A DNA stretch of 55,522 nucleotides from Oscillospiraceae bacterium (lineage in GTDB: Bacteria; Bacillota; Clostridia; Oscillospirales; Oscillospiraceae). A program made the position numbers and the translations under genes. Shown in pieces: positions 4,683 to 42,749 of this stretch; the stretch's first letter is position 1, and every line of letters begins with the position of its first letter. The notes beneath the pieces are model-generated. The model ran no database searches. It was given only the letters and a program-made list of their open reading frames with translations, and was not told the origin of the DNA. The stretch spans positions 1 to 55,522 of the forward strand of contig WQSX01000013.1 in assembly GCA_009787625.1 (NCBI GenBank). Direction: 5' to 3'.

Positions 4683-4725
4683 GCAGATGATAGGCAACTT
4701 GTTCCGCAAACTGCCTATCACCTGC
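4683..4725 (+). repeat. Intergenic hairpin element, copy 1 (internally deleted)
   Basis: GCAGATGATAGGCA (4683-4696) pairs with TGCCTATCACCTGC (4712-4725). The middle reads ACTTGTTCCGCAAAC, which matches the outer and middle stem of copies 4 and 5 (GGCAATTTGTTCCG and CAAACTGCC) but lacks the whole inner hairpin with the conserved core. It follows the iorB stop by 25 bases and could serve as a terminator-like structure, though it has no clear U tract. Confidence 0.6.
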
Positions 4726-4799
4726 TACCTTTGTTCGATAGGCTACATCCGGAGACATAAATACTATAACGATCACAGAAAAAAGGATAAAATAAGCAG

Positions 4800-5474
4800 A
4801 TGACAAACTCAAAAGCATTTACACGCAAACTTTCAATTCTGGCACTACTCAGCGCTATAGCATTTATCTTAGCATCACTTATCAGAATCCCACTTGTTCC
4901 TGCGGTTGGATTTTTGGGATATGAGCCCAAAGACGTAGTTTTGGTTATTGCCGGATTCATTTTCGGTCCATTGGCTTCACTGAGCATGATAACCGTAATC
5001 GCCTTGCTTGAAGGTTTCACTACGAGCGCACTGGGTCCGATTGGTATACCAATGAATTTTATCGCATCCGTCTCATTTTGTTGCACGGCGGCGGCGATAT
5101 ACAAAAAATGGCGAACATTGGCGGGTGCCGCTGTTGGGCTTGCTGTGGGGGTGGTTGTCACCACGGTCGCTATGTTACTTTGGAATTATGCGCTCACTCC
5201 AGTACTGATGGGTTTCCCACGAGAACAGGTGGAAGCAATGCTGATTCCCGGATTTTTGCCGTTTAACCTGATAAAAGGCACACTAAATGCGGCACTTGTA
5301 ATGTTGCTGTATAAGCCCATAAGAAAGGCACTTGACAAAGCGCGTCTGCTACCAATTTCAGAAGATGCGGGAGAAAGTAACACGGGAAAAATAAGTCTCG
5401 GTACGCTTTTTGTGTCTGCTCTGATAATACTCACATTGGTTCTTGTTGTTTTATCCTGGCAGGGCATCATCTAA
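4800..5474 (+). CDS. ECF transporter S component (substrate-binding membrane subunit)
   Basis: An integral membrane protein of 224 residues with about six hydrophobic segments. The N-terminal KLSILALLSAIAFILAS, then GYEPKDVVLVIAGFIFGPLA and GFLPFNLIKGTLNAALVMLL, match the S components of energy-coupling factor vitamin transporters, nearest in pattern to the RibU (riboflavin) group. The C-terminal segment SLGTLFVSALIILTLVLVVL is an extra hydrophobic helix. AAAAGGA lies 12 bases before the ATG. No FMN riboswitch is visible upstream, so riboflavin specificity is only a guess. No EcfA or EcfT is adjacent, so it would share a module encoded elsewhere, possibly the one at 21.4-23.9 kb. It may be co-transcribed with the Ca2+ ATPase 21 bases downstream. 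Confidence 0.8.
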   Translation: MTNSKAFTRKLSILALLSAIAFILASLIRIPLVPAVGFLGYEPKDVVLVIAGFIFGPLASLSMITVIALLEGFTTSALGPIGIPMNFIASVSFCCTAAAIYKKWRTLAGAAVGLAVGVVVTTVAMLLWNYALTPVLMGFPREQVEAMLIPGFLPFNLIKGTLNAALVMLLYKPIRKALDKARLLPISEDAGESNTGKISLGTLFVSALIILTLVLVVLSWQGII

Positions 5475-5495
5475 CATAAAAGGAATGGTCAGTGA

Positions 5496-8135
5496 ATGGA
5501 AATCTATCAAAAGAATACTGAAAGTGTTTTTTCGGAGTTTGCTACATCGCCGGACGGATTATCTAGTCAGGAAGTGGCCAAACGCATAGAAAAGCACGGT
5601 TACAACGAATTGCGCCAAGCGGAGCGGACGCCGCTTTGGAAACTCTTTGTTGAGGCGTGGAAAGACCCGATGATGATTATTCTGGCGCTTGTTGTGGTTG
5701 TAAAACTGTTTATCGGAGAGTTTATAGAATCGCTTGTAATTATTGCAGTGCTAGTGACAAATTCCCTTATTTCTGTCATTCAGACAAGAAAAGCGGAAGG
5801 CTCACTTGAGGCACTGCGGCAGATTAGCGCACCTGTTGCCAAGGTAAAACGAGATGGCAAAGTGCTCGAAGTTCCTGCAAGGGAGCTGGTTCCCGGCGAT
5901 ATAGTTACGCTTGAGGCGGGAGACTTTGTTCCCGCAGACGGAAGAATTGTTGAGTGTAACAGCCTTAAAATTGACGAAGGGCTTCTCACGGGTGAATCTG
6001 TTCCTGTTGAGAAGTTAAAAGACACCCTCGAAGGCTCTCTTGCTCTGGGCGACAGAAGAAACATGGTCTACAGCGGGGCTGTTGCCGTTCACGGTAGGGG
6101 AGATTATATAGTTACAGGAACAGCCAAAGAGGCTGAAATAGGCAAAATAGCCACGTTGATTGAAACAGCAGACGACAGGCAGACTCCACTACAGAGAAAG
6201 CTTGAGCATTTCAGCAAAAAGCTCGGTCTTGTAATCATGGCAATCTGCGCCCTTATATTCGCCACGCAACTTATTCGTGCATTTACAGATGCAGGTGGCG
6301 GCGCAATAGAATGGGGCCCAGTTATTCTCAGTGCGTTTATGTTTGCAGTGGCGGTAGCTGTGGCGGCAATCCCTGAAGCACTCAGCTCCGTTGTCACAAT
6401 AGTCCTTGCCGTAGGTACAAAAACTATGGCGAAGAGAAACGCCATTATACGCAAACTTCCCGCTGTTGAGGCTCTTGGAAGTACAAGCGTCATTTGCACG
6501 GACAAGACAGGTACTCTCACACAGAACAAAATGACAGTAATGGAGCACTTTTTACCAAACGATGGCAAACTTGAAGATTCCTTGCTTTTAAAATCAATGG
6601 CTCTGTGTAACGATGCGAGATTAAACGAAGATGGCAGTCAAATAGGCGATCCGACAGAGACGGCACTTCTCGTCTACTGCGACAAAGTAGGTACTCCTCA
6701 CCAGTCGCTCAGAGCGGAACTTGCAAGAATCGCAGAACTACCGTTTGACTCAGAGCGTAAGCTTATGAGTACGTTAAATAATGTTACGGTTCCGGACGAG
6801 CCAGGTAAAAAGTACATGTTCACAAAAGGCGCACCCGATGTAATGTTCTCACGTTGCAGCTTTGTTATGGTAGATGGCAAAGAAGTTCCTTTGACAGCTG
6901 AACTTTTAAAATCATTTGAAGATGCAAACGATGCATTTGGCGGAAAGGCTCTCAGAGTGTTGGCGTATGGGGTCAAAAAAATGAGTGGAGAAACAATATC
7001 GCTTGATGATGAAAACGAACTGATACTCGTCGGTCTCACAGCTATGATAGACCCGCCGCGTGAGGAAGTCTATGCATCAATTGCACAGGCGAAAAGCGCT
7101 CATATAAGAACAGTCATGATAACAGGCGACCACAAAAACACAGCAACAGCCATAGCCAGGGACATAGGTATACTGCAAGAGGGCGACATAGCAGTCACAG
7201 GTATGGAACTTGATGCCATGACCGAAGATGAGCTAAGTGAGAAGTTGCCGCATATATCTGTATATGCGAGGGTTTCGCCTGAAAACAAGATAACAATTGT
7301 CAAGGCATGGCAAAAGCGAGGTCAAATCACCGCTATGACGGGGGACGGAGTCAATGATGCACCGTCATTAAAGCAAGCAGATATAGGTGTTGCAATGGGT
7401 AGTGGCACTGAGGTTTCAAAAGATGCTTCGGCAATGATTTTAACAGACGACAACTTTGTCACCATTGTAAGTGCAGTTTCCGTAGGGCGCACGATTTTCG
7501 ACAACATCAAAAAGGTTGTGGGCTACTTATTCTCAGGCAATTTGGCTGGTATAATTGCAATTTTATTCGCTTTTGCAGTGGGTTGGGATTCGCCACTCAC
7601 GGCACTGCAAATTCTCTTTATAAATCTTGTAAACGACTCAATTCCGGCTATTGCTCTTGGGCTTGAAAAAAGTGAGCCGTCAGTTATGGATCGCCCACCA
7701 CGAGATATGAACGAAGGTATATTCGGTGGTGGTCTCTTCGCAAGCGTGATGATTCGCGGAACTCTTATCGGCATCGCAACAATCCTTGCGCAGTTTATAG
7801 GGCTCCAACTGTTCCCCGCATTCCCGGCAGTTGGCGGGGCAATGGCTTTCACAACACTTATTTTAGCAAGAACACTGCAAACTTTCTCATCACGCTCAAA
7901 CAGTGAAACGCTTGTGAAGCTAGGTTTATTCAGCAATAAATACGTTCTGTTGGCTGTGGGCGTTTGCTTGGCGCTATACGTTCTCACCATTTTGCCCGGT
8001 GTACGCGAAGTGTTTTCAATTTCTGATTACTTCGGATTAAATGCATGGGGCATTGCGGCAGGGCTTGCTCTCGGTACGATTTTAATAATGGAAATAGTAA
8101 AATGGGTGCGGCATCGGGGGAGCAATAAGACATGA
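5496..8135 (+). CDS. P2-type cation-transporting ATPase (Ca2+-ATPase-like)
   Basis: A membrane pump of 879 residues that uses ATP to export cations, most likely Ca2+. Seen in order: N-terminal cation ATPase domain (residues ~1-70), two helices, actuator domain with LLTGESVPVEK (~165), the M4 motif VAAIPEALSSVVTIVLAVG, the phosphorylation site CTDKTGTLTQNKM (Asp near residue 335), the nucleotide-binding domain (FTKGAPDVM), MITGDHKNTA, and the hinge MTGDGVNDAPSLKQADIGVAMG (near 615), followed by six C-terminal helices including NLVNDSIPAIALGLE. Helix M4 has PEAL where SERCA has PEGL. Full length and intact. The ion call is from family knowledge. The stop codon overlaps the next ATG by four bases (ATGA). 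Confidence 0.93.
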   Translation: MEIYQKNTESVFSEFATSPDGLSSQEVAKRIEKHGYNELRQAERTPLWKLFVEAWKDPMMIILALVVVVKLFIGEFIESLVIIAVLVTNSLISVIQTRKAEGSLEALRQISAPVAKVKRDGKVLEVPARELVPGDIVTLEAGDFVPADGRIVECNSLKIDEGLLTGESVPVEKLKDTLEGSLALGDRRNMVYSGAVAVHGRGDYIVTGTAKEAEIGKIATLIETADDRQTPLQRKLEHFSKKLGLVIMAICALIFATQLIRAFTDAGGGAIEWGPVILSAFMFAVAVAVAAIPEALSSVVTIVLAVGTKTMAKRNAIIRKLPAVEALGSTSVICTDKTGTLTQNKMTVMEHFLPNDGKLEDSLLLKSMALCNDARLNEDGSQIGDPTETALLVYCDKVGTPHQSLRAELARIAELPFDSERKLMSTLNNVTVPDEPGKKYMFTKGAPDVMFSRCSFVMVDGKEVPLTAELLKSFEDANDAFGGKALRVLAYGVKKMSGETISLDDENELILVGLTAMIDPPREEVYASIAQAKSAHIRTVMITGDHKNTATAIARDIGILQEGDIAVTGMELDAMTEDELSEKLPHISVYARVSPENKITIVKAWQKRGQITAMTGDGVNDAPSLKQADIGVAMGSGTEVSKDASAMILTDDNFVTIVSAVSVGRTIFDNIKKVVGYLFSGNLAGIIAILFAFAVGWDSPLTALQILFINLVNDSIPAIALGLEKSEPSVMDRPPRDMNEGIFGGGLFASVMIRGTLIGIATILAQFIGLQLFPAFPAVGGAMAFTTLILARTLQTFSSRSNSETLVKLGLFSNKYVLLAVGVCLALYVLTILPGVREVFSISDYFGLNAWGIAAGLALGTILIMEIVKWVRHRGSNKT

Positions 8136-8614
8136 CAATCAGAAAAACAAAGCACAGCGATATTGAGAAAGTAATGCAGATATATGCATTTGCGCAGAAC
8201 TTCATGATTCAAACAGGAAATCCTGAACAGTGGTGGACAGTTCACCCGCCTGAAAAACTCATTAAGAGTGACATAGAGAGAGGGCTCAGTTACGTTTGTG
8301 TGAATGAGCAAGAGATTGTCGCTGTGTTTTACTTCAACATAGAAATTGACCCGACATATGGGAAAATAGACGGAAGCTGGCTTAACGACGATGAATACGG
8401 AATTGTCCACAGAATAGCAAGTAACCGCAGTGTCAAAGGTGCAGGTGAGCACTGCATGAACTGGTGCTTTAAGCAGTGCCGCAACCTCAGAATCGACACA
8501 CATGCCGACAATGTTCCAATGAAAAAACTTCTCGAAAAGCTCGGCTATACCTATTGCGGAATTATATGGATTGAAAACGGCGACGAGCGGTTGGCTTATC
8601 AGAAAGTGGAGTAA
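8132..8614 (+). CDS. GNAT family N-acetyltransferase
   Basis: 160 residues, start overlapping the ATPase stop (ATGA), so translationally coupled. The N-terminus MTIRKTKHSDIEKVMQIY is the usual GNAT beta1-alpha1 opening. The acetyl-CoA binding region is around VHRIASNRSVKGAGEHCMNW, followed by LRIDTHADNVPMKKLLEKLG and the C-terminal GYTYCGIIW strand. The acceptor substrate is unknown. Many Firmicute relatives of this length are unassigned. A full copy of the hairpin repeat starts 23 bases after the stop codon. Confidence 0.85.
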   Translation: MTIRKTKHSDIEKVMQIYAFAQNFMIQTGNPEQWWTVHPPEKLIKSDIERGLSYVCVNEQEIVAVFYFNIEIDPTYGKIDGSWLNDDEYGIVHRIASNRSVKGAGEHCMNWCFKQCRNLRIDTHADNVPMKKLLEKLGYTYCGIIWIENGDERLAYQKVE

Positions 8615-8637
8615 CAATAGTGCTGTTCGTAACTCCC

Positions 8638-8732
8638 GCAGATGCCGGGCAATTTGCTACGCTGCTTTACGAGCCATTGGGATCTACACAGCTGTTCTCG
8701 CAAAGCAGCGTAACAAACGGCCCAACACCTGC
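8638..8732 (+). repeat. Intergenic hairpin element, copy 2 (full length)
   Basis: Outer arms GCAGATGCCGGGC and GCCCAACACCTGC pair with a few mismatches. The inner arms GCTGCTTTACGAG and CTCGCAAAGCAGC pair, enclosing the conserved core at 8671-8699 (GAGCCATTGGGATCTACACA...). Flanks match other copies: AACTCCC on the left and CTGCTA on the right. It lies 23 bases after a GNAT gene. Confidence 0.75.
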
Positions 8733-8788
8733 TAGCATGGACGCAGTATCGTAATTCTAATATTTCAAAGGGGATAGGTCATTAACGC

Positions 8789-9532
8789 ATGATAAAACAA
8801 GTTGAAAAAAGTGAGCAAATACTTGAGCATTTAAGGCAGAATCTATACGTGAACCTCAATATTCTGCACTTCATAGAAAATCACGCAGATGTGAAAATTT
8901 TAATTTATAATAACGACATGCAAAACGGGGTAATTGCGTTTGAAGATGATGGTTGGTGTTTTGTCGCCACTGAGTGTAAGGAGTTTTTGAAGGCTTTTTT
9001 GGAAAATTATCCCACAGGAAACAAACTATTTTCAAGTGTACCAAAAAATTCAGCCGAAGTTATATTTTCACTCAGTGAGCCGCTTTGGAAAACTTCGTGT
9101 AAGGTATATGTGTTTCAAGGTGAAGAAGTTACGAAAAAAAGTGGTAACTTCAAAGTCGAGCAGGTTCTTCCAAGCGATGTAAACGAAATTAATGAATATT
9201 ACACATACCGTGGAGACTGGAGCTTAGAGGAGCTGAAAATGTGTATAGAAAACCTTGACTCATCATGCATTCGCATAGACGGAGAGCTTGCCGCATGGTG
9301 CCTTGTCCACGATAACGACGGCTCATTAGGCCCGCTGTATACAAAAGAAAAGTTTCGCAGAATGGGTCTTGCCGAGCTTGTTTCGTATGATTTGATGGAA
9401 AAATTGATAGCGAAAGGTCAAATCCCATGTGTGCAGATAGTAGATGACAATACGAATTCACTAAATCTCGCAGCTAAGATAAAAGGCATGGAATACTCGC
9501 ATGATTGTATATGGTTTGGATTTGTGGAGTAG
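8789..9532 (+). CDS. GNAT family N-acetyltransferase with extra N-terminal domain
   Basis: 247 residues. The C-terminal half has a clear GNAT fold: LAAWCLVHDNDGSLGPLYTK, then KFRRMGLAELVSYDLMEKLI (the acetyl-CoA pyrophosphate loop with RxxGxA) and CVQIVDDNTNSLNLAAKI. The first ~120 residues (DVKILIYNNDMQNGVIAFED and following) resemble the second, degenerate GNAT-like half found in FR47/GCN5-related two-domain proteins. AAAGGGGATAGG lies upstream of the ATG. The substrate is unknown. It is not obviously in an operon with the genes on either side. Confidence 0.8.
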   Translation: MIKQVEKSEQILEHLRQNLYVNLNILHFIENHADVKILIYNNDMQNGVIAFEDDGWCFVATECKEFLKAFLENYPTGNKLFSSVPKNSAEVIFSLSEPLWKTSCKVYVFQGEEVTKKSGNFKVEQVLPSDVNEINEYYTYRGDWSLEELKMCIENLDSSCIRIDGELAAWCLVHDNDGSLGPLYTKEKFRRMGLAELVSYDLMEKLIAKGQIPCVQIVDDNTNSLNLAAKIKGMEYSHDCIWFGFVE

Positions 9533-9541
9533 TGATAACGC

Positions 9542-9569
9542 TTTACAGTAAAGCATTATGTGCTATAAT
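9542..9569 (+). promoter_or_regulatory. Promoter with overlapping palindrome, upstream of the DUF554 gene
   Basis: TTTACA (9542-9547), 16-base spacer, TATAAT (9564-9569). The perfect 15-base palindrome GCTTTACAGTAAAGC (9540-9554) covers the -35 box, as expected for an operator, though it might be chance. The start codon is 44 bases further on. Confidence 0.55.
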
Positions 9570-9613
9570 GATATTTGGATATTCGCATTAATAGAGAGGA
9601 AACAGCGGTATAG

Positions 9614-10318
9614 ATGTTAGGCGTAATTGTAAATACTGTCGCAATAATTGCCGGAAGCCTTATTGGACTGCTTGTAAACAGGGGAATACCTAAGCGATTT
9701 TCTACAGCTATTATGACAGCAATTGGTTTGGTGATTATCTATGTTGGTGTATCAGGGGCTCTTGAAGCAGAAAATCTCATAATTATGATTTTGTCTCTGG
9801 TGCTTGGCATCATAACAGGAACAGGTCTTAGATTGGACGAGCGTCTCAACACGTTGGGGCAAAAACTTGAGAAACGCTTTGCTCCAAGTGGTGAGGGGAA
9901 AAAGAAAAGCACTTTTGCGCAGGGCTTTGTATCGGCGACATTGCTGTTTTGTGTTGGTGCTATGGCTATAGTCGGCTCAATCAATTCAGGTCTGCTCGAT
10001 GACCATTCTGTTATTTACGCAAAATCTACGATTGACTTTATATCCGCCATTGTACTTACGGTTAGTTTCGGAATTGGCGTTATGTTTTCAGCCTTTTCCG
10101 TGCTCATCTATCAAGGGCTTTTAGTATTACTCGCAGGTCTTTTGAGTCAAGTGCTTTACGACAGTGCACTGATAGCAGAGCTTACAGGTGCAGGCTCACT
10201 CATAATTGTCGCACTCGGCTTAAATATGATAGGTGTGTCAAAAATAAAAGTAGCCGACTTCCTGCCAACCATAGTGTTTGTTCCTGTTTTGTTCAGGCTT
10301 TATGAGCTTATATTCTAA
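9614..10318 (+). CDS. DUF554 family membrane protein (YdfK/YqgA-like)
   Basis: 234 residues, about seven hydrophobic segments. It starts MLGVIVNTVAIIAGSLIGLL, the standard DUF554 opening. It then shows GIITGTGLRLDERLNTLGQKLE, FAQGFVSATLLFCVGAMAIV (family motif GF..ATLLFCVGAMAI), GLLDDHSVIYAKSTIDFISA and the C-terminal FLPTIVFVPVLFRLY. It is full length. The family is a putative transporter of unknown substrate. RBS GAGAGGAAACAGCGG precedes the ATG. It is 19 bases from selA and probably in the same transcript, but this may reflect only genome position. Confidence 0.88.
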   Translation: MLGVIVNTVAIIAGSLIGLLVNRGIPKRFSTAIMTAIGLVIIYVGVSGALEAENLIIMILSLVLGIITGTGLRLDERLNTLGQKLEKRFAPSGEGKKKSTFAQGFVSATLLFCVGAMAIVGSINSGLLDDHSVIYAKSTIDFISAIVLTVSFGIGVMFSAFSVLIYQGLLVLLAGLLSQVLYDSALIAELTGAGSLIIVALGLNMIGVSKIKVADFLPTIVFVPVLFRLYELIF

Positions 10319-10337
10319 CAAGGACCGGTAATTTACA

Positions 10338-12849: not shown

Positions 12850-12892
12850 CAATGTAAAAAGAAAGCGCTGGTAATATATTAAAGGAAAAACT

Positions 12893-20537: not shown

Positions 20538-20563
20538 TCCTCCTGATTTTACTATAGCTTCCC

Positions 20564-20702
20564 GCAGAGGTCAGGCTATTTACGAAATTATTTGCTGTAG
20601 GGGCGACCGTCTCGCCCGCTCTTGCCGCTCTTGCCGCTCTTGCCGCTTGCGCCGCATAACCGCTGTTCTCGCAAATAATTTCGCAAACAGCCTGACCTCT
20701 GC
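20564..20702 (+). repeat. Intergenic hairpin element, copy 3 (altered core)
   Basis: The left arm GCAGAGGTCAGGC continues into ATTTACGAAATTATTTGC; the right arm GCAAATAATTTCGC continues into AAACAGCCTGACCTCTGC. The outer and inner stems pair well. The loop keeps CCGCTGTTCTCGC at its right end, but the left half is replaced by GTAGGGGCGACCGTCTCGCC plus a triple CGCTCTTGC repeat (about 20617-20646). It sits 15 bases beyond the fchA stop, but its core is in the opposite orientation to that gene. Confidence 0.65.
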
Positions 20703-20717
20703 TATCCTGTGCATGCC

Positions 20718-26497: not shown

Positions 26498-26553
26498 GAT
26501 GGCGCCCGAAATATGGTGAAAATGTATGCAAGGCAATGGGGAGGATTTTACAG

Positions 26554-29500
26554 ATGTCCTTGAAAATGGCGGACTACAATAACGGTTTGATATACACAGA
26601 TGAAGAAGGTTGTATTGATTGCAATAAGTGCATACATGAATGCCCTATACTCAGGTCAAATGTATCAGTAATTGATGATAACGGAAACTATAAAAAATGT
26701 GTTGATGAAAATGAGTGTACATTTTGTGGTAAATGCATGGACACGTGTATACACGGCGTAAGGCACTACAAGGATGATTTAAACGAATTTTTAGCTGATT
26801 TGAAGTGCGGTAAAACAGTTTCTGTTTTAGTAGCACCCTCTTTTTATTTGAACTATCCGGAGGATTATTCGAAAATTCTGGGTTATCTCAAAAGCCTTGG
26901 AGTTAAGACTTTTTATTCGGTAGGAATTGGAGCGGATATCACAACGTGGAGTTGTTTAAACTATCTGACAAACAATAATACACCAACTCATTTACCAACA
27001 ACTTACATATCACAGCCCTGCCCGTCAATCGTGAGGTACATCGAAAGGCATCTCCCTGAACTACTGCCCAACCTCATGCCTGTGCAAAGTCCGCTTATGT
27101 CCACAGCGATATACCTCAAGCGCTACGGAGGAATTACAGACGAACTGGCATTTTTAAGTCCATGTGTAGCAAAAAAGGACGAAATTCAGTCAAAAAGAGG
27201 CCTCGGTTTGATAAGCCACAACATCACTTTCGCAACTCTTATGCAGCATATAAAAGATCAAGGTGTGAACCTTGAAAGTTACCCATGTGTTGAAGATGAA
27301 AAAGGTGCCGGGCTGGGCATATTTTATCCTCAGCCGGGAGGGTTCAAGGAAAATATGGAGTATTATCTGGGCCGCAGTGTGGGAATACTCCAAATCGAAG
27401 GTGAGAGAAAAGCCTATTCATACCTAAAAACACTTGCCGAACGCACACAAAACATGGACGAGACAATGCCTGCACTGATTGATGTGCTCAACTGTGACTT
27501 GGGGTGTACATACGGCACTGCTACGGCATTCAGGCAGAACGGCGACTACTCTGCTGCACATCAATTCGTATTGACTCGAAAGAAAAAACTGGATAGTGAA
27601 AGAGAAGAAAGTGAACATTTCTTCGAAACACATTCAGACCGATTTTCTGCGCTTAATGAGCATTTTAAGGATTTGGTTCTTGAGGATTTTTTATGTGAAT
27701 ATGAGACCGAAACTTTCGTTAAACGAAGTGTCGCAAGCCAAGAAGAAATAGAAACCATTTTTAGAGAAAAACTCTTTAAACTGACAGAGGACGACAAGCA
27801 CATCGATTGCTCTGCATGTGGTTATAAAAGTTGCATCAATATGGCAGAGGCGATTGCCATTGGCATAAATCACCACGACAACTGTGTATATTTCATGAAA
27901 AACTCTCTGGCAGATTCTGAAGTCGCCATGCGTCAAAGATTAAAAGCAATGCTTGATGCATCGCCGATACTCTGCTGTATTTATGATGAAAACTATAGGG
28001 TTATAGAGGCAAATTCGGCGGCTGCGCATATGTTTGACCTCACAGACATAGACACCTACATAAACCGTTTTTTCGACCTCTGCCCGGAATATCAGCCTGA
28101 TGGGACTCCAAGTAGAGTTAAAGTTCCGCAGGTGCTTGACAAAGCTTTAGCTGAGGGTTCTATGCAATTTGAATGGATGCACCAGACTTTGGACGGAACT
28201 CCCATACCGTGCCATGTAAATCTTGAAAGAGTGAATTTGCTTGGAAAAAATGTGGTAATGACATATGTTCGTGATTTGAGAGAACAAAATGAGATGATTG
28301 CAAAACTCGAAACAGCTTACCAGGAAATGCAACGTGTTGTGGTCGCTGAGGAGAGTAACAAGGCAAAAAGTAGATTTCTGGCAAAGATGAGCCATGAAAT
28401 CCGCACGCCAATCACAGCGGTTCTCGGTATTTCTGAAATTGAACTCCAGAACCCCAGGATTCCTGACCATTTTGAAAAGTCATTTTCCAGAATTCATGAC
28501 GCATCGGCTGCATTGCTTCACATAATTAATGATATTTTGGATCTTTCAAAGATAGAGGCAGGAAAGACGGAACTGCTCTGCGAACAATATGAGGTGACAA
28601 CCTTGATTGCCGATTTGACGAGTACATACAACATAAATGTCGGGAACAAAAACATCAAATTTTATGTAAGTGTGGCTGAAAACTTGCCTGCATCACTTTT
28701 GGGTGATATTGTCCGCATTGAGCAGGTGGTAAATAATATACTATCAAATGCTTTTAAATATACCATCGCCGGTTCGGTAAGTTTCACTGCTGCGTGTGAG
28801 GAAGATGAAAAAGGTGACTACATTAAGTTGGTACTTACCGTAGCCGATACAGGGATTGGCATGACTGAAAAACAGTTAAATGAGCTTTTTAACGATTTCT
28901 CGCGATTTCACGATGAGGAGTATATGCATGTTGCCGGGGTGGGATTAGGTATGCCGATTGCCTACAATCTGGTGAAAATCATGGATGCCGATATAGATGT
29001 AAAGAGTGAACCGGGCATCGGGACAGTAGTGGTTGTCAGCATACCGCAAAAGATTGTATCTGAGAAAACTGTAGGTAAAGAGCGAGCTTTGCAATTGGAG
29101 AGATTTGAGTCAAATGCCCAAAGAGCCGCAAAAAGTGTAACATTTGTACCGGAATCAATGCCATACGGCAAGGTGCTCATCGTGGACGATGTGGAATCAA
29201 ACAGGTATGTGGCAAGAGGTCTGCTTGAATTTTACGACATAGATATTGACTCCTGTGAAAGTGGATATGAGGCTATAGAAAAGGTGAGCCACGGCAAGGT
29301 GTACGACATTATTTTCATGGACTATATGATGCCCGGAATGGATGGTGTTGAGGCACTAAAAAAACTTCGAGAACTCGGCTATATTGCACCGATAGTGGCA
29401 CTGACAGCCAACGCCATGATAGGGCAGGTAGAGGAACTCATGAAGCATGGTTTTGACGCATTTTTGTCAAAACCTATACTGGCGAAGCCTTTGAATGATG

Positions 29501-30123
29501 TACTCACCAAATTTATAAGAGATAAGTATCCGGAAGAGGCTAAAAAGACAATTGAGACAATGATTGAAAGTATCCCCGTAAAAAGAGATGAAATCGGCAT
29601 TGAAGAGTATCAACAAAGCCCGGAGCTCTTAGAAAAATTGCGGGTTGATTTTGCGCGAAGTCATAAAAACACATATAAGAGTGTCCTTAAAGCACTTGAC
29701 GAAAAAGACAATGAAACTGCGATGCGCTTGGCACACACCATCAAAGGCTCAGCCGGGCTGATACAAGAACCGGAGTTGTCGTCAGTAGCACGAGATGTAG
29801 AGCTTTCAATAAGAGAAGGAAAAGAACCAACGGAAGTTCAGCTAACTGCATTTATGACCGAACTTGAGTCTGTGCTCAAACGAATTACTCCCGGTACCGG
29901 CACGGCACCGGATACAAGGCAGGACATCGAAAAAGGGCTTGCGCTACTGGGTGAACTTATTCCTCTTATGGAGGACGGAAATGCCTCATGTCTGAAACTG
30001 GTTGATGATTTAAATAAAATCACCGAAACGGCAGTTTTAGTACGGCAAATAGAAACATTAAATTTTGACGAAGCTATAAAAACATCAAATACGCTCAAGG
30101 ATATTTGGGAAGAGTATCGATAG
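26554..30123 (+). CDS. [FeFe]-hydrogenase-domain hybrid histidine kinase (putative H2/redox sensor)
   Basis: 1189 residues from ATG 26554 (GGGGAGG 10 bases upstream decides over an ATG at 26536). Domains: two [4Fe-4S] clusters (C20, 23, 26, 30 and C55, 58, 61, 65); an [FeFe]-hydrogenase large-subunit domain (~90-345) with all four putative H-cluster ligand cysteines (SQPCPS C156, SPCVAKKDE C204, NCDLGC C314 and C318); a third Fe-S motif of RnfB type (C419, 422, 427, 444); PAS (~460-580); a short coiled coil; HisKA with MSHEIRTP (His614); HATPase with NILSNAFKY, ADTGIGM and GVGLGM; receiver (MDYMMPG, Asp923); Hpt (AHTIKGSAG, His1061). The proton-relay Cys of TSCCP is Pro here, and the Met of the MPC motif is Ser, which points to sensing rather than fast catalysis. 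No transmembrane segment. The output partner is not in the window. Confidence 0.9.
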   Translation: MSLKMADYNNGLIYTDEEGCIDCNKCIHECPILRSNVSVIDDNGNYKKCVDENECTFCGKCMDTCIHGVRHYKDDLNEFLADLKCGKTVSVLVAPSFYLNYPEDYSKILGYLKSLGVKTFYSVGIGADITTWSCLNYLTNNNTPTHLPTTYISQPCPSIVRYIERHLPELLPNLMPVQSPLMSTAIYLKRYGGITDELAFLSPCVAKKDEIQSKRGLGLISHNITFATLMQHIKDQGVNLESYPCVEDEKGAGLGIFYPQPGGFKENMEYYLGRSVGILQIEGERKAYSYLKTLAERTQNMDETMPALIDVLNCDLGCTYGTATAFRQNGDYSAAHQFVLTRKKKLDSEREESEHFFETHSDRFSALNEHFKDLVLEDFLCEYETETFVKRSVASQEEIETIFREKLFKLTEDDKHIDCSACGYKSCINMAEAIAIGINHHDNCVYFMKNSLADSEVAMRQRLKAMLDASPILCCIYDENYRVIEANSAAAHMFDLTDIDTYINRFFDLCPEYQPDGTPSRVKVPQVLDKALAEGSMQFEWMHQTLDGTPIPCHVNLERVNLLGKNVVMTYVRDLREQNEMIAKLETAYQEMQRVVVAEESNKAKSRFLAKMSHEIRTPITAVLGISEIELQNPRIPDHFEKSFSRIHDASAALLHIINDILDLSKIEAGKTELLCEQYEVTTLIADLTSTYNINVGNKNIKFYVSVAENLPASLLGDIVRIEQVVNNILSNAFKYTIAGSVSFTAACEEDEKGDYIKLVLTVADTGIGMTEKQLNELFNDFSRFHDEEYMHVAGVGLGMPIAYNLVKIMDADIDVKSEPGIGTVVVVSIPQKIVSEKTVGKERALQLERFESNAQRAAKSVTFVPESMPYGKVLIVDDVESNRYVARGLLEFYDIDIDSCESGYEAIEKVSHGKVYDIIFMDYMMPGMDGVEALKKLRELGYIAPIVALTANAMIGQVEELMKHGFDAFLSKPILAKPLNDVLTKFIRDKYPEEAKKTIETMIESIPVKRDEIGIEEYQQSPELLEKLRVDFARSHKNTYKSVLKALDEKDNETAMRLAHTIKGSAGLIQEPELSSVARDVELSIREGKEPTEVQLTAFMTELESVLKRITPGTGTAPDTRQDIEKGLALLGELIPLMEDGNASCLKLVDDLNKITETAVLVRQIETLNFDEAIKTSNTLKDIWEEYR

Positions 30124-30156
30124 CGTATTCGGATTTGCGTAAGCGCTTAACTCCCA

Positions 30157-30247
30157 CAGAGGCAGAGCAATTTGTTCCGCTTTTTGCGAGCCATCGGGAT
30201 CTACACCGCTGTTCTCGCAAAAAACGGAGCAAACTGCCCTGCCTCTG
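30157..30247 (+). repeat. Intergenic hairpin element, copy 4 (full length, best paired)
   Basis: CAGAGGCAGAGC (30157-30168) pairs with GCCCTGCCTCTG (30236-30247) with one mismatch. The middle stem TTGTTCCG pairs with CGGAGCAA; the inner stem CTTTTTGCGAG with CTCGCAAAAA. The core CCATCGGGATCTACACCGCT lies in the loop. It lies between the sensor kinase stop and the convergent glycosidase stop (24 bases away) and could terminate both. Confidence 0.78.
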
Positions 30248-30271
30248 CTAATATTGCGTAAAACTCATAAT

Positions 30272-31603: not shown

Positions 31604-31670
31604 ACTTGGTTTCCTCCATCATAAAATAATGTTGATGTGATGCTACTATGCCGAGAGTGTGACTGAGTTG

Positions 31671-31719
31671 CTTAAGTTACTTAACTAAGTATATTAAAGG
31701 AAGTGCGAGTGAAAAGCAA
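31671..31719 (-). promoter_or_regulatory. Promoter and ROK-type operator for the GH4 gene
   Basis: On the minus strand TTGCTT (31714-31719), 17-base spacer, TAATAT (31691-31696). Immediately downstream is ACTTAGTTAAGTAACTT (plus strand AAGTTACTTAACTAAGT, 31674-31690), with a palindromic AGTTA-CT-TAACT centre. The same -35, the CTCACACTTCC-like spacer and an operator recur at 40230-40286. Confidence 0.65.
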
Positions 31720-31774
31720 CAAATTAATGAGGAGAAACTGCATATTTGTCTAAATACAACAAAGTTATATGAAT

Positions 31775-33602: not shown

Positions 33603-33689
33603 GCATGGTCATATTGTTTTTATTTTATGATTAGAAGCCTACAGGGAAAATAACAAGCAAGTTTTCTAGAGAAAAGGAGTGGTTATATA

Positions 33690-34634: not shown

Positions 34635-34673
34635 AAGTCAAAAAACTAATAAAAAAATAATTATCAAGAATGA

Positions 34674-35558: not shown

Positions 35559-35588
35559 ATAAAAAATTATAAGAAGGGGTATAGTTTA

Positions 35589-37546: not shown

Positions 37547-37627
37547 GCACAGAATGAACTTGGCATAATAATGAATTATATCTTTTTATGCTTGGTCAAC
37601 GAATAATAATAATGGAGGACATAAACG

Positions 37628-38578
37628 ATGAACATGATAGACACAATTGCAGGTTCAATGCTGGAAGACTTCTTCCCAAAAGGGTGGGACTTACAAAAAA
37701 TTGAAGACTGCTGTGCCACGCCGCCTGAGCGGGCACTAGACAGAATGCCGCACTGGCACAAAGATTTTGTAACAGAGGAGTGCGCCGACGTGGCTAGTTT
37801 CAATATGCAGATGGGCTATGAAATTGCCAAGCACATTAAACGCACCAGAGACGAAGGTAAAAAACTGGCGTTAATCCTTTCTGCCGGTCCTATGGGAATG
37901 TATAAATGGGCAGCATATTTTTTAAGAGATTGGAAGTGTAGTTGCGACCACGTGTGGGGATTTAACATGGATGAGTGGAGCGATAGTAACGGCAATACTT
38001 TACCAGGAGATGACCCAGGTGCTTTCACAAACGCAATGGAACTCGCTTTCTACGGACCTCTTGGTGAGTATACGGTACCGAAGGAACAACGTAACTTTGC
38101 AACATTAGAAAACTTACCCACATATCCGGATAAAATCAAAGCGATTAAAGATGACGGTGGGGAGTTAATTACAATATATGGCATAGGACGTTGCTTCCAT
38201 GTTGCATTCTGGGAACCTCATTTTGCGTTGGATTATGCCAGTGTGGAAGATTGGAAAAAAGACCCTTACCGTATAGCAGCACAATTGCATCCTATGACCA
38301 TCGAGCAAAACTCGCTTATCAGTTTCAGAAGCCGGGTAACGCTCATCCCCGCGCGTGCAAATACTGTTGGACCAGGACTCTTTTTGAACTCAGATTATTG
38401 TATTGGCGGTGTGGACGGTGTGGTCGGACGCGGTATGAATTGGCAAGGAATGACGTTTTTTGTTACACTGAAGTACGGGCCAGACATCTGGGTTCCGAGC
38501 AGTTGGATGCCTACGCTTCCCGGCAAGTTTTTTGTAGTGGAAGAGCTGAAAGGTCCATTGGTCCCCGAATGTAACTAG
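37628..38578 (+). CDS. Glucosamine-6-phosphate isomerase/6-phosphogluconolactonase-fold protein with altered NagB active site
   Basis: 316 residues. The NagB fold is shown by LALILSAGPMGMYKWAAYFL, the catalytic HVWGFNMDEWSDS (Asp115-Glu116, compare LDEY in NagB), IYGIGRCFHVAFWEP (His191 and Glu196 kept; Cys189 in place of the Asp of GxDGHIAFNEP) and IPARANTVGPGLFLNSD. NagB is ~240-260 residues; this one is longer, with an N-terminal extension of about 50 residues and inserts. It may act on a different amino- or keto-sugar phosphate. GGAGGACATAAACG precedes the ATG. It is encoded between the importer operon and an aldo/keto reductase gene. Confidence 0.8.
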   Translation: MNMIDTIAGSMLEDFFPKGWDLQKIEDCCATPPERALDRMPHWHKDFVTEECADVASFNMQMGYEIAKHIKRTRDEGKKLALILSAGPMGMYKWAAYFLRDWKCSCDHVWGFNMDEWSDSNGNTLPGDDPGAFTNAMELAFYGPLGEYTVPKEQRNFATLENLPTYPDKIKAIKDDGGELITIYGIGRCFHVAFWEPHFALDYASVEDWKKDPYRIAAQLHPMTIEQNSLISFRSRVTLIPARANTVGPGLFLNSDYCIGGVDGVVGRGMNWQGMTFFVTLKYGPDIWVPSSWMPTLPGKFFVVEELKGPLVPECN

Positions 38579-38632
38579 TGGTCTGTAACATCTTTTCGAA
38601 TTTTAATAGTAAATCAACAAGGGAGGAATAAC

Positions 38633-39595
38633 ATGAGTCGTTATGATAATATGCAATATCGTAGATGCGGTAACAGCGGAGTTTTGCTTCCAGGCATTTC
38701 TCTGGGACTCTGGCATAATTTTGGAACCGATGCACCTTATTCAAATTGCCGTGAAATGATTTTGGGATCATTTGATTTAGGAATCACTCATTTTGACATC
38801 GCTAACAACTATGGTCCGCTGCCCGGCTCAGCGGAGGAAACATTTGGACGAATATTGAAAAAAGACCTACTAGCACATCGTGATGAACTATTTATAGCTT
38901 CAAAAGCCGGATTTTATATGTGGGAAGGACCTTATGGCGAATGGGGCTCTAAAAAGCATATAATATCATCTCTGGATCAGAGCCTTAAACGGACCGGTCT
39001 TGAGTATGTAGATGTGTTCTACCACCACCGTCCAGATTCAGATACCCCTATTAGCGAGACCATTGATGCATTAGAACTGGCACTTCGTTCGGGGAAAGCC
39101 CTGTATGCCGGTATTTCAAACTATGATCCTCAACAGACAAAAGATATGGTAGAAGCCTGCAAGCAAAGGAACATCCCATTATTAATTCATCAGATGAACT
39201 ATAATATGTTCGACCGCTCAGCAGAGGATATAATCGATGTGCTTGATTCTTTTGGTATCGGTTCAATTGCTTACTGTCCGCTAGCCCAAGGTTTGCTGAC
39301 AAATAGGTACCTGGGTGGAATTCCTGATGGTTCACGCGCTGCAACAGAAGGAACTTTCCTAAAAAGAGACAGTGTAACCGACGAAAAAATCAATAAAGTC
39401 AAAGCACTGGGTGAGTTGGCCGCTGAAAGAGGTCAATCACTTGCGCAGATGGCGTTGGTGTGGGTGTTGCAACGTTCATCTTCAGCGATAATTGGTGCAA
39501 GCAGCTTCGCACAAATTGATGAAAATGTCAAATCGCTTGACAAAATGAGCTTTACAAAAGATGAACTAGCGGCAATTGATAAAATACTTGGCTAA
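38633..39595 (+). CDS. Aldo/keto reductase, YghZ/GPR-like
   Basis: 320 residues. The (beta/alpha)8 NADPH-dependent reductase fold is shown by LGLWHNFG, the Asp-Tyr pair in HFDIANNYGPLPGSAEETFG, Lys in ELFIASKAGF and His in YVDVFYHHRPD, completing the catalytic tetrad. SSSAIIGASSFAQIDENVKS is the cofactor end. The length and TDAPYSNCREMI loop resemble L-glyceraldehyde-3-phosphate reductase YghZ. GGAGGAATAACATG start. In this locus it may reduce a sugar aldehyde. A bidirectional terminator follows. Confidence 0.9.
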   Translation: MSRYDNMQYRRCGNSGVLLPGISLGLWHNFGTDAPYSNCREMILGSFDLGITHFDIANNYGPLPGSAEETFGRILKKDLLAHRDELFIASKAGFYMWEGPYGEWGSKKHIISSLDQSLKRTGLEYVDVFYHHRPDSDTPISETIDALELALRSGKALYAGISNYDPQQTKDMVEACKQRNIPLLIHQMNYNMFDRSAEDIIDVLDSFGIGSIAYCPLAQGLLTNRYLGGIPDGSRAATEGTFLKRDSVTDEKINKVKALGELAAERGQSLAQMALVWVLQRSSSAIIGASSFAQIDENVKSLDKMSFTKDELAAIDKILG

Positions 39596-39637
39596 GAAAG
39601 CTGTTTTACTTTTTGTTACTACTGCTTTATTAATGCA

Positions 39638-39682
39638 CAGAGAAACTGTGGGAAGTGACTATTGCCTCCCACAGTTTCTCTG
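39638..39682. terminator. Bidirectional terminator
   Basis: CAGAGAAACTGTGGGA (39638-39653) and TCCCACAGTTTCTCTG (39667-39682) are perfect 16-base arms between two convergent genes. The ACTGTGG/CCACAGT stem also occurs in the terminator at 46738-46777. Confidence 0.8.
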
Positions 39683-39689
39683 GATTACA

Positions 39690-40154
39690 CTACTTAGCAA
39701 TACTATATGAAAAAACATCAGGTTTCAGATTATGGTCGTCGTCACAGTTTTCTACAAACGTCCAGCCCAGTTTTCTGTAGTAATCACTTGCGGTCTCTGT
39801 TCTCAGATACAGTTTATCATACCCCAGTTGCTGCGTTATCTCAATTACAGCACTTACCAATTGTTCGCCAACTCCGCAGTTTCTATACGCACTATCGACA
39901 TAAAGTGCGGCAAGCCATGGTGTGTACTGCCTACAGTTTAAATCGTTAAAAACAAGAGATACGGTGCCTGCACATTTATCTTCAGCCAGCGCAATCAGGC
40001 GTATCGGCAACTCATGCTTGTTACATTCACTCACTTCTGACAGAATGCGTTCATATGATTGACCATGCTTTACACCATTGATGAATTCGTCGAAAATCCA
40101 TTTTGTGACGGTCTCGGCATATTCCATTTTATCGCACAGATACTCAATCTTCAT
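39690..40154 (-). CDS. GNAT family N-acetyltransferase
   Basis: 154 residues from ATG 40154 (GGGAG lies about 12 bases upstream; the protein then starts MKIEYLCDKMEYAETVTKWI, a common GNAT opening; a longer TTG start at 40202 is possible). Seen: PIRLIALAEDKCAGTVSLVF, WLAALYVDSAYRNCGVGEQL (the acetyl-CoA loop, RxxGxG) and YLRTETASDYYRKLGWTFVE. The substrate is unknown. It is transcribed from a promoter that closely resembles the GH4 promoter, so it may belong to the sugar regulon, or have captured a duplicated promoter segment. Confidence 0.85.
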   Translation of the reverse strand: MKIEYLCDKMEYAETVTKWIFDEFINGVKHGQSYERILSEVSECNKHELPIRLIALAEDKCAGTVSLVFNDLNCRQYTPWLAALYVDSAYRNCGVGEQLVSAVIEITQQLGYDKLYLRTETASDYYRKLGWTFVENCDDDHNLKPDVFSYSIAK

Positions 40155-40229
40155 TTTCAATGTTTTCTCCCAGTTTTTTCTGTATTCATTACCCATGTCC
40201 AACCCAGCTTGCGCAACTTGGATGCTCGA

Positions 40230-40286
40230 CTTAGTTACTTAATGTAGATTAGTAAAGATTTTAAAGGAAGTGTGAGGAAAAAGCAA
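40230..40286 (-). promoter_or_regulatory. Promoter and ROK-type operator, duplicate of the GH4 promoter segment
   Basis: On the minus strand TTGCTT (40281-40286), 17-base spacer ending CACTTCCTT, TAAAAT (40258-40263), then CATTAAGTAACTAAG (plus strand CTTAGTTACTTAATG, 40230-40244). The spacer and flanks align base for base with much of 31691-31730 (AAGGAAGTGYGAG, AAAAGCAA). Confidence 0.65.
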
Positions 40287-40378
40287 TAATTAAATGGGCG
40301 AGAGACATAAATTTGTGAAAACAGCACAATAAACAGCATGAATAATGTATAAAATAGATAAAAGTGGTTCTGGCTTAT

Positions 40379-40404
40379 TTTGAGCACTTTGCAATGTGCT
40401 CAAA
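40379..40404. repeat. Palindrome upstream of the ROK gene
   Basis: TTTGAGCAC (40379-40387) and GTGCTCAAA (40396-40404) are exact complements with an 8-base loop. It sits between the divergent promoters of the GNAT and ROK genes and may be an operator. Confidence 0.45.
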
Positions 40405-40427
40405 GACCGTCCTTTCCTGCGATTAGT

Positions 40428-40480
40428 TTGACAAAATCGGGAATTTATATTAATATAATAAGTAATGACTAACACTTATT
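40428..40480 (+). promoter_or_regulatory. Promoter and operator of the ROK regulator gene
   Basis: TTGACA (40428-40433), 17-base spacer, TAATAT (40451-40456). The inverted repeat AATAAGT (40457-40463) and ACTTATT (40474-40480) lies directly downstream and contains AAGTAATGACTAAC, like the other operators. This layout suggests autoregulation. Confidence 0.6.
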
Positions 40481-40513
40481 AATGGTAGATAAGTAATGAA
40501 ACGAGGGTGCAAT

Positions 40514-41677
40514 ATGTTAGATTCCGGTAAATCCCCTGAGAACATAGCTCAACATAATAAGCGGCTTATACTAGATGCTCTGCGTAAAAACGGAGATATG
40601 TCTCGCGCGGACTTATCGAGGCATCTTCACATGAGTTTTCCCGCTATATCTTCCAATGCTAAGGGTTTGCTTGAAGCGGACTATATTTTGGAAGTTGGCG
40701 CAGGGGACAACAGCATAGGGCGTAAGTCTACCATGCTCGCTTTTAATTCTAAACGAGGATTTATTATAGGGGTTGACTGGGGGCGTTTTCACATACGTAT
40801 GATGCTCGCTGATTTGCTTGGTAATGAAATTATAAGCACAGAGGCAGTGAATGATTCAGATAGTGCAAATGTAGGGCAGGAACGAATCACCCTGATTCAT
40901 GACAGAATAGCTGAAATTCTTGAAAAGTCGGGAAAAACAAAAGATGATATCCTATGCATAGTCATAGGCATTCCGGGGATTATTTATGATGGAGTCAGCT
41001 CTCTTGCTCCATTTACCGAAAAGTTTAGTGGTAAAGAATTTATTGATGTATTGCAAGAATCTTTCGAAGCTGATGTTATACTGGAAAACTGCGTGAATCT
41101 GGGAGCGATTGGTGAGCAGTGGAAGGGTGCGGGAGTAAATTATAAGGATATCACATATATTGCATATGGTGTTGGTATTGGTTCTGCGCATATACTTAAC
41201 GGTAATTTGTATAAAGGTGCAACAGGTGCTGCAGGAGAGATAGGCTTTATGCTAACGGATCCTGTTAACATTTCAAATAAATATGACGATACAGGCTCGC
41301 TTGAACTAATGCTATCAATCAGTAAAATAAATCACTACCTCAAGTCAGGTAGTTTTAATGAAGATATAATTAAACTCATACAGAACTATAAAGATGGAGA
41401 AGATCTTTATGCAAAACTAATGATTGACGAGATTGCGTTGAACTTTGGAATCATGCTCGCTAATGTTGTCTCGGTGTTAAATCCTGAGATAATAATCATA
41501 GCAGGCGGACTTGGGTATAATTTCGGAAAGCTTTTTATTGATCACTGGCAGGGAGTTGTGAAAAATCATTTTCCCTATGCGCCAAAGCTCGTGCTTTCTG
41601 AGTTAAACCACACTGAAACTATGCTCGGAGCTGTAATGACAGGGATTAATCATGTTCATGAATATGTGATAGGTTAG
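40514..41677 (+). CDS. ROK family transcriptional regulator
   Basis: 387 residues from ATG 40514 (GAGGG seven bases upstream; an ATG at 40496 lacks a ribosome site). N-terminal winged helix-turn-helix: NIAQHNKRLILDALRKNGDM SRADLSRHLHMSFPAISSNA. The ROK sugar-kinase-like domain has GFIIGVDWGRFHIRMMLADL, GIPGIIYDG, VILENCVNLGAIGEQWKGAG and YIAYGVGIGSAHILNGNLYK GATGAAGEIGFM. The usual zinc-binding CxCGxxGCxE loop is absent (MLTDPVNISNKYDDTGSLEL), so this is a regulator without the zinc site. It probably binds ACTTAGTTA-like operators in this locus and is relieved by a sugar or sugar phosphate. Confidence 0.9.
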   Translation: MLDSGKSPENIAQHNKRLILDALRKNGDMSRADLSRHLHMSFPAISSNAKGLLEADYILEVGAGDNSIGRKSTMLAFNSKRGFIIGVDWGRFHIRMMLADLLGNEIISTEAVNDSDSANVGQERITLIHDRIAEILEKSGKTKDDILCIVIGIPGIIYDGVSSLAPFTEKFSGKEFIDVLQESFEADVILENCVNLGAIGEQWKGAGVNYKDITYIAYGVGIGSAHILNGNLYKGATGAAGEIGFMLTDPVNISNKYDDTGSLELMLSISKINHYLKSGSFNEDIIKLIQNYKDGEDLYAKLMIDEIALNFGIMLANVVSVLNPEIIIIAGGLGYNFGKLFIDHWQGVVKNHFPYAPKLVLSELNHTETMLGAVMTGINHVHEYVIG

Positions 41678-41687
41678 GGGGAACTAG

Positions 41688-42650
41688 ATGGACTATTACG
41701 TTGGTGTAGATGGCGGCGGTACTAAGACTACGGTTTGTGTTGCTTCTGCCGATTCGTCGTTGCTCTTATCTGAACTGACGAGTAGTGCATCTTGGAGAGA
41801 GTACGGAACAAATCATGTTATAAGTAATATTAAAGCGGTTATTGATGCTTTCCCGTTGGGTAAGAATGCTCGCGTCGCCGGTGTTGTTATGGGCTTGCCC
41901 TGCTTTGGTGAGGGTGAGGCGGGCGATCGTGAACTAAGAGCTACTGTAGCGGAAATTTTTGGAGAAATTCCCGTTTACATCACAAATGATGTTGAGGTCG
42001 GCTGGGCGGGTTCGCTCGGGCTTATGCCGGGCGTCAACGTTGTTGCGGGTACGGGTTCGATTGCTTTTGGCAAAAATGAAGCGGGAGAGACGTGCAGGTG
42101 CGGTGGTTGGAGTGAGTTTTTCGGTGATGAGGGTTCATGTTATTGGGTTGGTAAAAAAGTAATGCAACTTTTTTCAAAGCAGGCAGACGGCAGAGTGCCA
42201 AAAGATGAGCTCTATGATGTTGTGATGAAAGAGTTTGGTTTAACCAGTGATATAGAGATAATTGAGCCTCTGCACAGCAATTATTTGGTCAGCAGAGATA
42301 AGGTTGCAGCTCTTCAATTTTTAGCAAAAGAGGCGGCACTGGCGGGGTCTTCGAGTGCCAAAGAGCTTTATAAGAAAGCGGCTGAGGAGCTTTGCGCTCA
42401 TGTCGCCGCTATTCGCAGTAGCTTAAATTTTGAAAATGAGCCGTTTTTGGTTTCATATTCAGGTGGGCTCTTTAAGACAGGAGAGCTTATTTTGCCGCAT
42501 TTTTTCGCAGGCATTGAAGCTATACACGGAAAGCCTGTAAGCCCGAAATTTGAGCCTATGTTTGGTGCGCTACTCATGGCTTTTGAGCGTGGGCATAAGC
42601 AGGGGTTGCCTATGTTGCAAAAGCGACTTGGTGATGATTTTTGTGCATGA
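41688..42650 (+). CDS. BadF/BadG-type ATPase, N-acetylhexosamine kinase-like
   Basis: 320 residues with the ASKHA fold: phosphate-1 YVGVDGGGTKTTVCVASA, ITNDVEVGWAGSL, adenosine/phosphate-2 VNVVAGTGSIAFG, and GGWSEFFGDEGSCYWVGKK followed by the C-terminal VSYSGGLFKTGELI. The pattern matches eukaryotic-type N-acetylglucosamine kinase and bacterial glucosamine kinase relatives. It would phosphorylate an imported amino sugar, as needed when import is by ABC transport rather than a PTS. GGGGGAACTAG precedes the ATG, 10 bases after the ROK gene. A full hairpin repeat begins 5 bases after the stop. Confidence 0.85.
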   Translation: MDYYVGVDGGGTKTTVCVASADSSLLLSELTSSASWREYGTNHVISNIKAVIDAFPLGKNARVAGVVMGLPCFGEGEAGDRELRATVAEIFGEIPVYITNDVEVGWAGSLGLMPGVNVVAGTGSIAFGKNEAGETCRCGGWSEFFGDEGSCYWVGKKVMQLFSKQADGRVPKDELYDVVMKEFGLTSDIEIIEPLHSNYLVSRDKVAALQFLAKEAALAGSSSAKELYKKAAEELCAHVAAIRSSLNFENEPFLVSYSGGLFKTGELILPHFFAGIEAIHGKPVSPKFEPMFGALLMAFERGHKQGLPMLQKRLGDDFCA

Positions 42651-42655
42651 ACCCC

Positions 42656-42749
42656 GCCTGGAGTGGGCAATTTGTTCCGCTTTTTTCGAGCCATCGGGAT
42701 CTACACCGCTGTTCTCGAAAAAAGACTCCACAAACAGCCCATTCCAGGC
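42656..42749 (+). repeat. Intergenic hairpin element, copy 5 (full length)
   Basis: GCCTGGAGTGGGC (42656-42668) pairs with GCCCATTCCAGGC (42737-42749). The middle parts AATTTGTTCCG and GACTCCACAAAC pair less well; the inner stem TTTTTTCGAG pairs with CTCGAAAAAA. The core CCATCGGGATCTACACCGCT is identical to copy 4. It starts 5 bases after the kinase stop. Confidence 0.75.

Follow-up and report, generated by a model that had tools for sequence, protein, structure and literature searches.

Five hairpin-forming sequences lie close to stop codons in a 55,522-nt stretch of Oscillospiraceae DNA (the window), part of contig 13 of a 3.02-Mb draft genome in 94 contigs (G000). Their arms differ from copy to copy, and the question is whether they are mobile elements, terminators or processing signals, or structured RNAs, as a first-pass annotation of the sequence had variously proposed. 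The evidence assembled here favors placing the family among the mobile hairpins, as a distinctive relative of MITEs and REPs, over reading it as a new regulatory RNA. That annotation was right about structural constraint and in naming a mobile element as one option; it erred on the strand carrying G–U pairs, and its terminator idea is weak.

Hairpin copies in the window and in related genomes

All five hairpins are present where they had been reported (Table 1), and with the boundaries originally drawn every copy begins or ends 6–34 nt from a stop codon. A covariance model (R1) was built from 71 sequences (61 G000 copies and 10 from the sister species G005) and matches all five; copies 2, 4, and 5 belong to the training set, which leaves copies 1 and 3 as the independent tests. 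These latter three have the apical loop in common, as had been noted. Folds of all five are stronger than those of shuffled sequences (z −5.0 to −10.3; none of 200 shuffles equal, copy 3 being trimmed to 147 nt). The family had not been recognized, and a search of the whole window against Rfam 15 gave no match at the gathering score.

Table 1. Copies of the hairpin element in the window
Copy	Type	Position	Strand	R1 score	Apical loop	Remarks
1	Short derivative	4675–4735	minus	39.8 bits, E 2e-7		Outer and middle stems retained, inner hairpin and loop absent; fold z −5.4
2	Complete, REP-like (sub1)	8630–8742	minus	106.4 bits (training-set member)	8671–8699, two base changes
3		20556–20712	minus	52.4 bits		Outer and inner arms retained; a GTAG-type repeat (TGTAGGGGCGACC..) and a short tandem repeat replace most of the loop
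4	Complete, REP-like	30148–30258	minus	109.1 bits (training-set member)	30188–30216	Between two convergent genes
5	Complete, REP-like	42648–42759	minus	114.6 bits (training-set member)	42688–42716	6 nt past a stop codon

Copy 1 retains a TTCCG, as would be expected had short direct repeats recombined to delete the segment between them. Copy 4 is flanked asymmetrically by an 8-nt direct repeat, TTACGCAA, which may have arisen by chance. The repeat within copy 3 represents a different repeat, of GTAG type (TGTAGGGGCGACC..GGTCGCCCG), seen inside copies of the hairpin family at window positions 20596–20660 and at L047:10770–10912; similar repeats occur elsewhere as inverted pairs (L054, L048, L064, L065).

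The description of the family as repeated stands, and the count of five is an effect of the window. In 848,722 sampled bases of G000 (L031–L070 plus the window) there are 63 loop-bearing copies, the loop search having returned 64 sites of which one holds half a loop. Extrapolation from this sample, which is non-random (contigs already known, several of them chosen for DNA-search matches), puts the whole genome at about 220 copies. A whole-genome DNA search of G000 listed 157 first-look candidates, 40 of which were scored. Sixty-one of the 63 copies were aligned, two near stretch ends being left out, and 49 of the 61 are of the REP-like window type (sub1), without full-size ends; the window copies are included in this count.

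The hairpin is approximately 95 nt long, with a proposed GNA/GNA internal loop. Its folded strand reads approximately 5′-(N)TA-GCAGATGATGGGC-NGTTTGYGGAGTCTTTTTT-apical loop-complement-3′, and carries an (N)TAG tag in which, in G000, the TA before the stem G is mostly retained and the first base varies; in the sister species G018 the tag is mostly GTAG or GCAG. One 26-nt apical loop is identical in 54/61 G000 copies. Ten aligned G005 copies have a second loop (eight copies) or a third (two), and further loops on the same architecture occur in G018, G006, G007, G004, G008, and G009. A few G000 copies bear non-main loops: the main loop of G005 stands at the beginning of contig C36, and a related loop is found at L045:3358. 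By comparison, the outer-arm pairs of the 49 sub1 copies are all distinct, with a mean difference of 35.5% vs 0.8% in the loop, and the more distant flanks are close to random (72.9% difference at −34 to −21). An inner segment, CTACG or CTCCG, appears in both arms with one orientation. Nested insertion was considered as the source of these CGGAG/CGTAG direct repeats and discarded, given that sister species hold the perfectly paired state.

When 40 relatives were searched at the DNA level, two gave matches (G000 and G005). Scanning genome contigs for the loop pattern returned four stretches. Three of them belong to the MAG Oscillospiraceae bacterium Co191P3bin61 (judged to be G005), and the fourth, L088, shows no hairpin by eye. 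R1 matched 10 of the 19 genomes of the genus (match counts include both strands of the palindrome, with no more than 150 scored), or eight once G002 and G003 are dropped, whose single matches look like unrelated hairpins. Outside the genus, a search of 196 genomes from the order yielded no match at E 1e-5 under strict filters; the element has so far been found in one genus of Oscillospiraceae. We take the source of these MAGs to be the termite gut. A phage origin was rejected after one loop pattern found no match in viral contigs.

Two other sets of hairpins were seen in the G000 sample. L031:5128, L052:11139, L058:17326, L062:11768, and L069:10660 form a separate hairpin family, also repeated; its arms resemble AATGACCATTCCTTT, and its loops include either a stretch similar to CACAAAACGAC or the complement of one. 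Similar hairpins with a different loop (AACGGGGGCTACGACACGCCGG) lie at L042:10615–10724 and L041:9599–9702; they match R1 weakly (51.1 and 38.5 bits), and are perhaps a further branch of the family.

Insertion sites, element ends and IS66-type genes

A 2.2-kb DNA query found no ortholog within the genus, and gene junctions were compared between G000 and G005 using reciprocal best protein matches instead. All eight comparable junctions lack the element in the other species. They represent 6/63 G000 and 2/13 G005 copies, the other 68 of 76 having unmapped flanks, changed gene order or contig edges. In six of the eight cases the spacing between the genes at the empty junction is −8 to 18 nt. Alignment of the six G000 sites to G005 showed the hairpin to be absent together with its outer arms; four junctions are clean and two less clear (C1:99426 and C1:104913). 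The absence of arms from aligned empty sites led us to reject insertion of the core into existing palindromes, with target hairpins becoming the outer arms.

A full-size subfamily (sub2) is 132–133 bp long, encodes no gene and has inverted ends, GTAACTATTCACC/TGAACAGTTAC. Perfect 8-bp target duplications flank 6 of its 15 copies and two more duplications agree at seven of eight letters; for the remaining seven, either no duplication was seen or one end was unplaceable. Three right ends in this set (L211, L212, and L216) were read by eye. Copies in G018 are likewise short and non-coding with terminal inverted repeats, and 8 of 25 have flanking repeats of length at least 8 vs approximately 1.25 expected, one of these lying inside the element. 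Corresponding repeats are near chance in sub1 (3/49 vs approximately 1.3 expected). No end remnant was found on the 3′ side of the 49 sub1 copies, and on the 5′ side weak remnants (at least 8 of 13 letters) occur in four copies vs 0.8 in controls. The empty sister-species sites and the duplications at full-size copies thus bear out the annotation's suggestion of a mobile, non-autonomous element; the window-type copies may have moved by the same route as their full-size kin. Three contigs from two species (G000:C36, G005:C152, and G005:C185; L190, L166, and L169) begin inside near-identical copies with the G005-type loop, which suggests recent amplification of one variant.

The ends of the element are shared with a group of transposase loci. 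IS66-type genes (PF03050) occur in 7 of the 19 genomes, and a divergent clade among them accounts for eight matches in five genomes. From this clade six loci were taken, each with the gene 3′ end present and at least 47% identity, and in five of them (G005:C77, G001:C235, G000:C28, G005:C37, and G001:C6) the end motif GTWAC-N2-KTCAC lies 120–220 bp past the gene, where chance predicts 0.002 per locus (350 nt); the distances for G005:C37 and G001:C6 use contig coordinates. At the sixth, G016:C87, the strict motif was not found. L198 (G001:C235) is the only clade locus with the strict motif at both ends, and no target duplication was found there. Outside the six, G006:C88 (29% identity) has near-motif ends, GTAACTATTCAG and GTAACTGTTCAG, approximately 1.9 kb apart, rather than the strict motif, and the match at G001:C88 spans residues 108–195 only, with no gene end visible. 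The other PF03050 loci have no end within two mismatches (L194, L196, L200, and L203) or two-mismatch matches only (L193 and L201). The motif-bearing genes are PF03050/NF033517 homologs, and the divergent-clade member tested scores below the NCBI IS66 cut-off. The canonical GTAAGCG end is present at L193 in G003 and was not found on the hairpin element, the ends of which are GTAAC/GTTAC.

Genomic setting and strand-specific pairing of the stem

The 63 copies occupy 38 co-directional, 11 convergent, and two divergent gene gaps, while eight overlap a predicted frame and four lie at edges. Gene calls were made by a simple script, and the frame overlaps are perhaps misplaced starts; another rule places 3/61 between divergent genes. 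The loop centre is 37–174 nt past the stop codon in 37/38 co-directional cases, and relative to these neighbors 25 copies are sense and 13 antisense. The strand displayed in the first-pass annotation follows the G-rich direction in 44 copies vs 19 (p 0.002), as do 437 genes vs 222; the G-rich strand is usually leading in Firmicutes.

The outer stem was scored on the displayed strand as 12 pairs in 61 copies. Of these 732 cells, 676 are Watson-Crick, 43 A.C, two G.T, and 11 other. The excess of A.C over G.T has p 6e-11 if cells are independent, which those of related copies are not; when distinct position-types are counted once it is 14 vs 2. Since an A.C on one strand is a G.T on the other, it is the complementary strand whose pairing is under constraint. 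The wobble pairs, which had been attributed to the strand shown, are on the (N)TAG-tagged strand; this is the strand that folds, and in the window it is the minus strand. The A.C:G.T ratio is 22:1 where the displayed strand is sense to the neighboring genes (29 copies), 11:0 where it is antisense (16 copies), and 5:1 between convergent genes (11 copies). A bias that is equal whatever the gene direction looks intrinsic to the element and argues against action within neighboring mRNAs. Together with the mixed orientation of the copies, it leaves the terminator or processing-signal proposal weak. The folded strand may be read either in single-stranded DNA or in an independently transcribed RNA.

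Consensus folding energies point the same way, at −51.9 kcal/mol for the tagged strand (A2, 61 G000 and 10 G005 copies) vs −29.9 kcal/mol for the displayed strand (A1, the 61 G000 copies with longer flanks), on sets that are not identical. In G018, a 28-copy alignment gives 105 G.T vs five A.C on the tagged strand, and −50.5 vs −25.3 kcal/mol for the two strands. The claim of selection on structure agrees with an alignment of 87 distinct G000 rows, in which 22 pairs have changed on both sides vs 15.6 in shuffles, and 297 cells vs 68.5. Neither value was reached in any of 500 shuffles, which do not keep relatedness, and a control with slid partners gave at most 11 pairs and 71 cells. Over 13 outer pairs of this alignment, the tagged strand has 69 G.T vs eight A.C. 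The 87-row alignment, having been fitted to the model, is biased in its favor; no such fitting went into A1.

Interpretation and relation to known systems

Comparisons here are with excerpts of the cited papers. Among the literature compared, the nearest described system is QMITE2 of Coxiella burnetii, a 150–190-bp MITE containing a GTAG REP, in which full-size copies have TIRs and direct repeats of 7–9 bp (7–11 in the abstract), and small REP-like copies have neither (PMC5896051). The family described here similarly combines full-size copies bearing TIRs and repeats with small REP-like ones, lies mainly in intergenic DNA 3′ of genes, and forms a strong hairpin. It differs in sequence, host, size (132–133 bp), and copy number (about 220 vs approximately 50), and in having ends that match IS66-type loci. 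Species-specific loops and strand-biased compensation were not seen in the account of QMITE2, the main text of which has no occurrence of covariation or RAYT (PMC5896051). In common with GTAG REPs, the family has a tagged palindrome whose stem variants stay paired, G.T pairs in the stem, 3′ intergenic placement and lineage restriction (PMC3733652, PMC8266576). However, REPs are described as 20–40 bp (PMC3733652), whereas this hairpin is far longer, with a structured loop, and its three main carriers have no Y1 match. IS66 elements make 8-bp target duplications (PMC11946415), as here, and both sets of ends start GTAA or GTTA; in contrast to the GTAAGCG ends reported for IS66 (PMC11946415), those of the hairpin element follow GTWAC-N2-KTCAC, and it contains no gene. 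A search for the hairpin family in the literature, limited to one library and set of terms, did not find it.

A MITE/REP hybrid resembling QMITE2, under a strand-specific folding constraint, is a well supported description. In the fuller reading that we favor, with a probability of approximately 0.75, the family is a non-autonomous element whose full-size MITE form is moved in trans by a divergent IS66-type transposase, and which leaves REP-like derivatives with a strand-specific fold. Full-size copies are MITEs of approximately 133 bp that have GTWAC..TCAC-type terminal inverted repeats and make 8-bp target duplications on insertion, and the divergent IS66-type enzyme is the most likely mover, judging from the shared ends. 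The REP-like copies, which form the majority of the sample and include those in the window, would be older or truncated full-size ones, reduced to the long hairpin and (N)TAG tag with no recognizable ends. The stem has to remain paired on the folded strand while its outer sequence is free, and the apical loop is nearly fixed within G000 and differs in other species. Surviving insertions are mostly those just past stop codons, where genes otherwise abut. A species-specific partner would recognize the folded strand, whether this is RNA or single-stranded DNA. Several observations sit uneasily with this reading: sub1 copies lack 3′ end remnants and have duplications near chance, nearly half of the full-size copies (7/15) have no duplication or an unplaceable end, G016:C87 lacks the strict motif, the ends are not the canonical GTAAGCG, and L198 has no target duplication. 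Moreover, G018 holds many fresh copies, yet has neither a PF03050 nor a Y1 match.

An unlikely competitor is that the copies are REPs which a RAYT-type (Y1/HUH) transposase, reading the tagged, folded strand, moves in single-stranded DNA form, the IS66-like ends of full-size copies being secondary. The (N)TAG tag 5′ of the folded strand, the strand bias that ignores gene direction, and the lack of target duplications or ends in most sampled copies speak for such an enzyme, and of the two strands of a REP, TnpA-REP is described as reading the proper one alone (PMC8266576). Against this, the Y1 transposase family (PF01797) has no match in the main carriers G000, G005, and G018 (drafts, 90–96% complete), though it is present in 8/19 genomes of the genus, among them the minor carriers G006 and G004 (G004 below the cut-off). 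R1, which is less sensitive to the loops of other species, has no match at 12 Y1 loci of approximately 3 kb each, and on these two grounds RAYT was set aside as the mover. The tagged strand also falls on the C-rich strand in 44/63 copies, which is opposite to what a preference for the lagging-strand template would give, provided that the G-rich strand is leading.

The wobble excess with compensation, which in RNA would be of the G.U type, could instead mean that selection keeps the copies because the folded RNA acts, in 3′ end protection, as an sRNA or as a sponge, with the loop as binding site. Conservation of the loop beyond that of arms and flanks, placement just past stop codons and scarcity between divergent genes (2/63) fit this idea, which we regard as somewhat less likely still. 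Sense and antisense copies show an equal bias, which makes read-through mRNA an improbable agent; position conservation in 49 REP-like copies gave nothing promoter-like upstream of the folded strand (no position above 0.55 bits beyond 8 nt); and the eight comparisons contain no site common to both species. Template switching between the arms (quasi-palindrome correction) would produce compensatory changes with no selection on structure, and accords with the perfect or near-perfect palindromes in the arms of many copies and with the CTACG/CTCCG segment running in one direction on both arms, as an inversion within one of them would give. As an explanation for the whole pattern it is improbable: alone it would not favor the wobbles of one strand by 43 to 2, nor would it freeze the loop, and the occurrence of both kinds of transition among the stem mismatches speaks against simple deamination of one strand as a sufficient cause.

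The MITE/REP reading adds a large hybrid family to the Oscillospiraceae, one not met with in the literature searched. Counting A.C against G.T in stems offers a simple sequence test for the folded strand of a palindromic repeat, and also tells whether that strand depends on neighboring transcription. The strand bias and the species-specific fixed loops pose a testable question, namely what reads the folded strand where no RAYT is found. It is tempting, if speculative, to regard the hairpin as a strand-specific structural password, whose main loop in each species, common to subfamilies with differing outer arms, is read by a species-specific protein or RNA partner. Were this so, the partner would keep hundreds of scattered copies folded, with the loop fixed after insertion, and a transposon family would have turned into a network of dispersed recognition sites, made of RNA or single-stranded DNA and operating with no RAYT.

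Two further features of the window were noted. Positions 26536–30123 encode a 1195-aa protein that combines an iron-only hydrogenase large-subunit domain with PAS, histidine kinase, receiver, and Hpt domains. Two 69-nt sequences (31661–31729 and 40228–40296), 75% identical, lie 5′ of different genes and are possibly a shared regulatory site.
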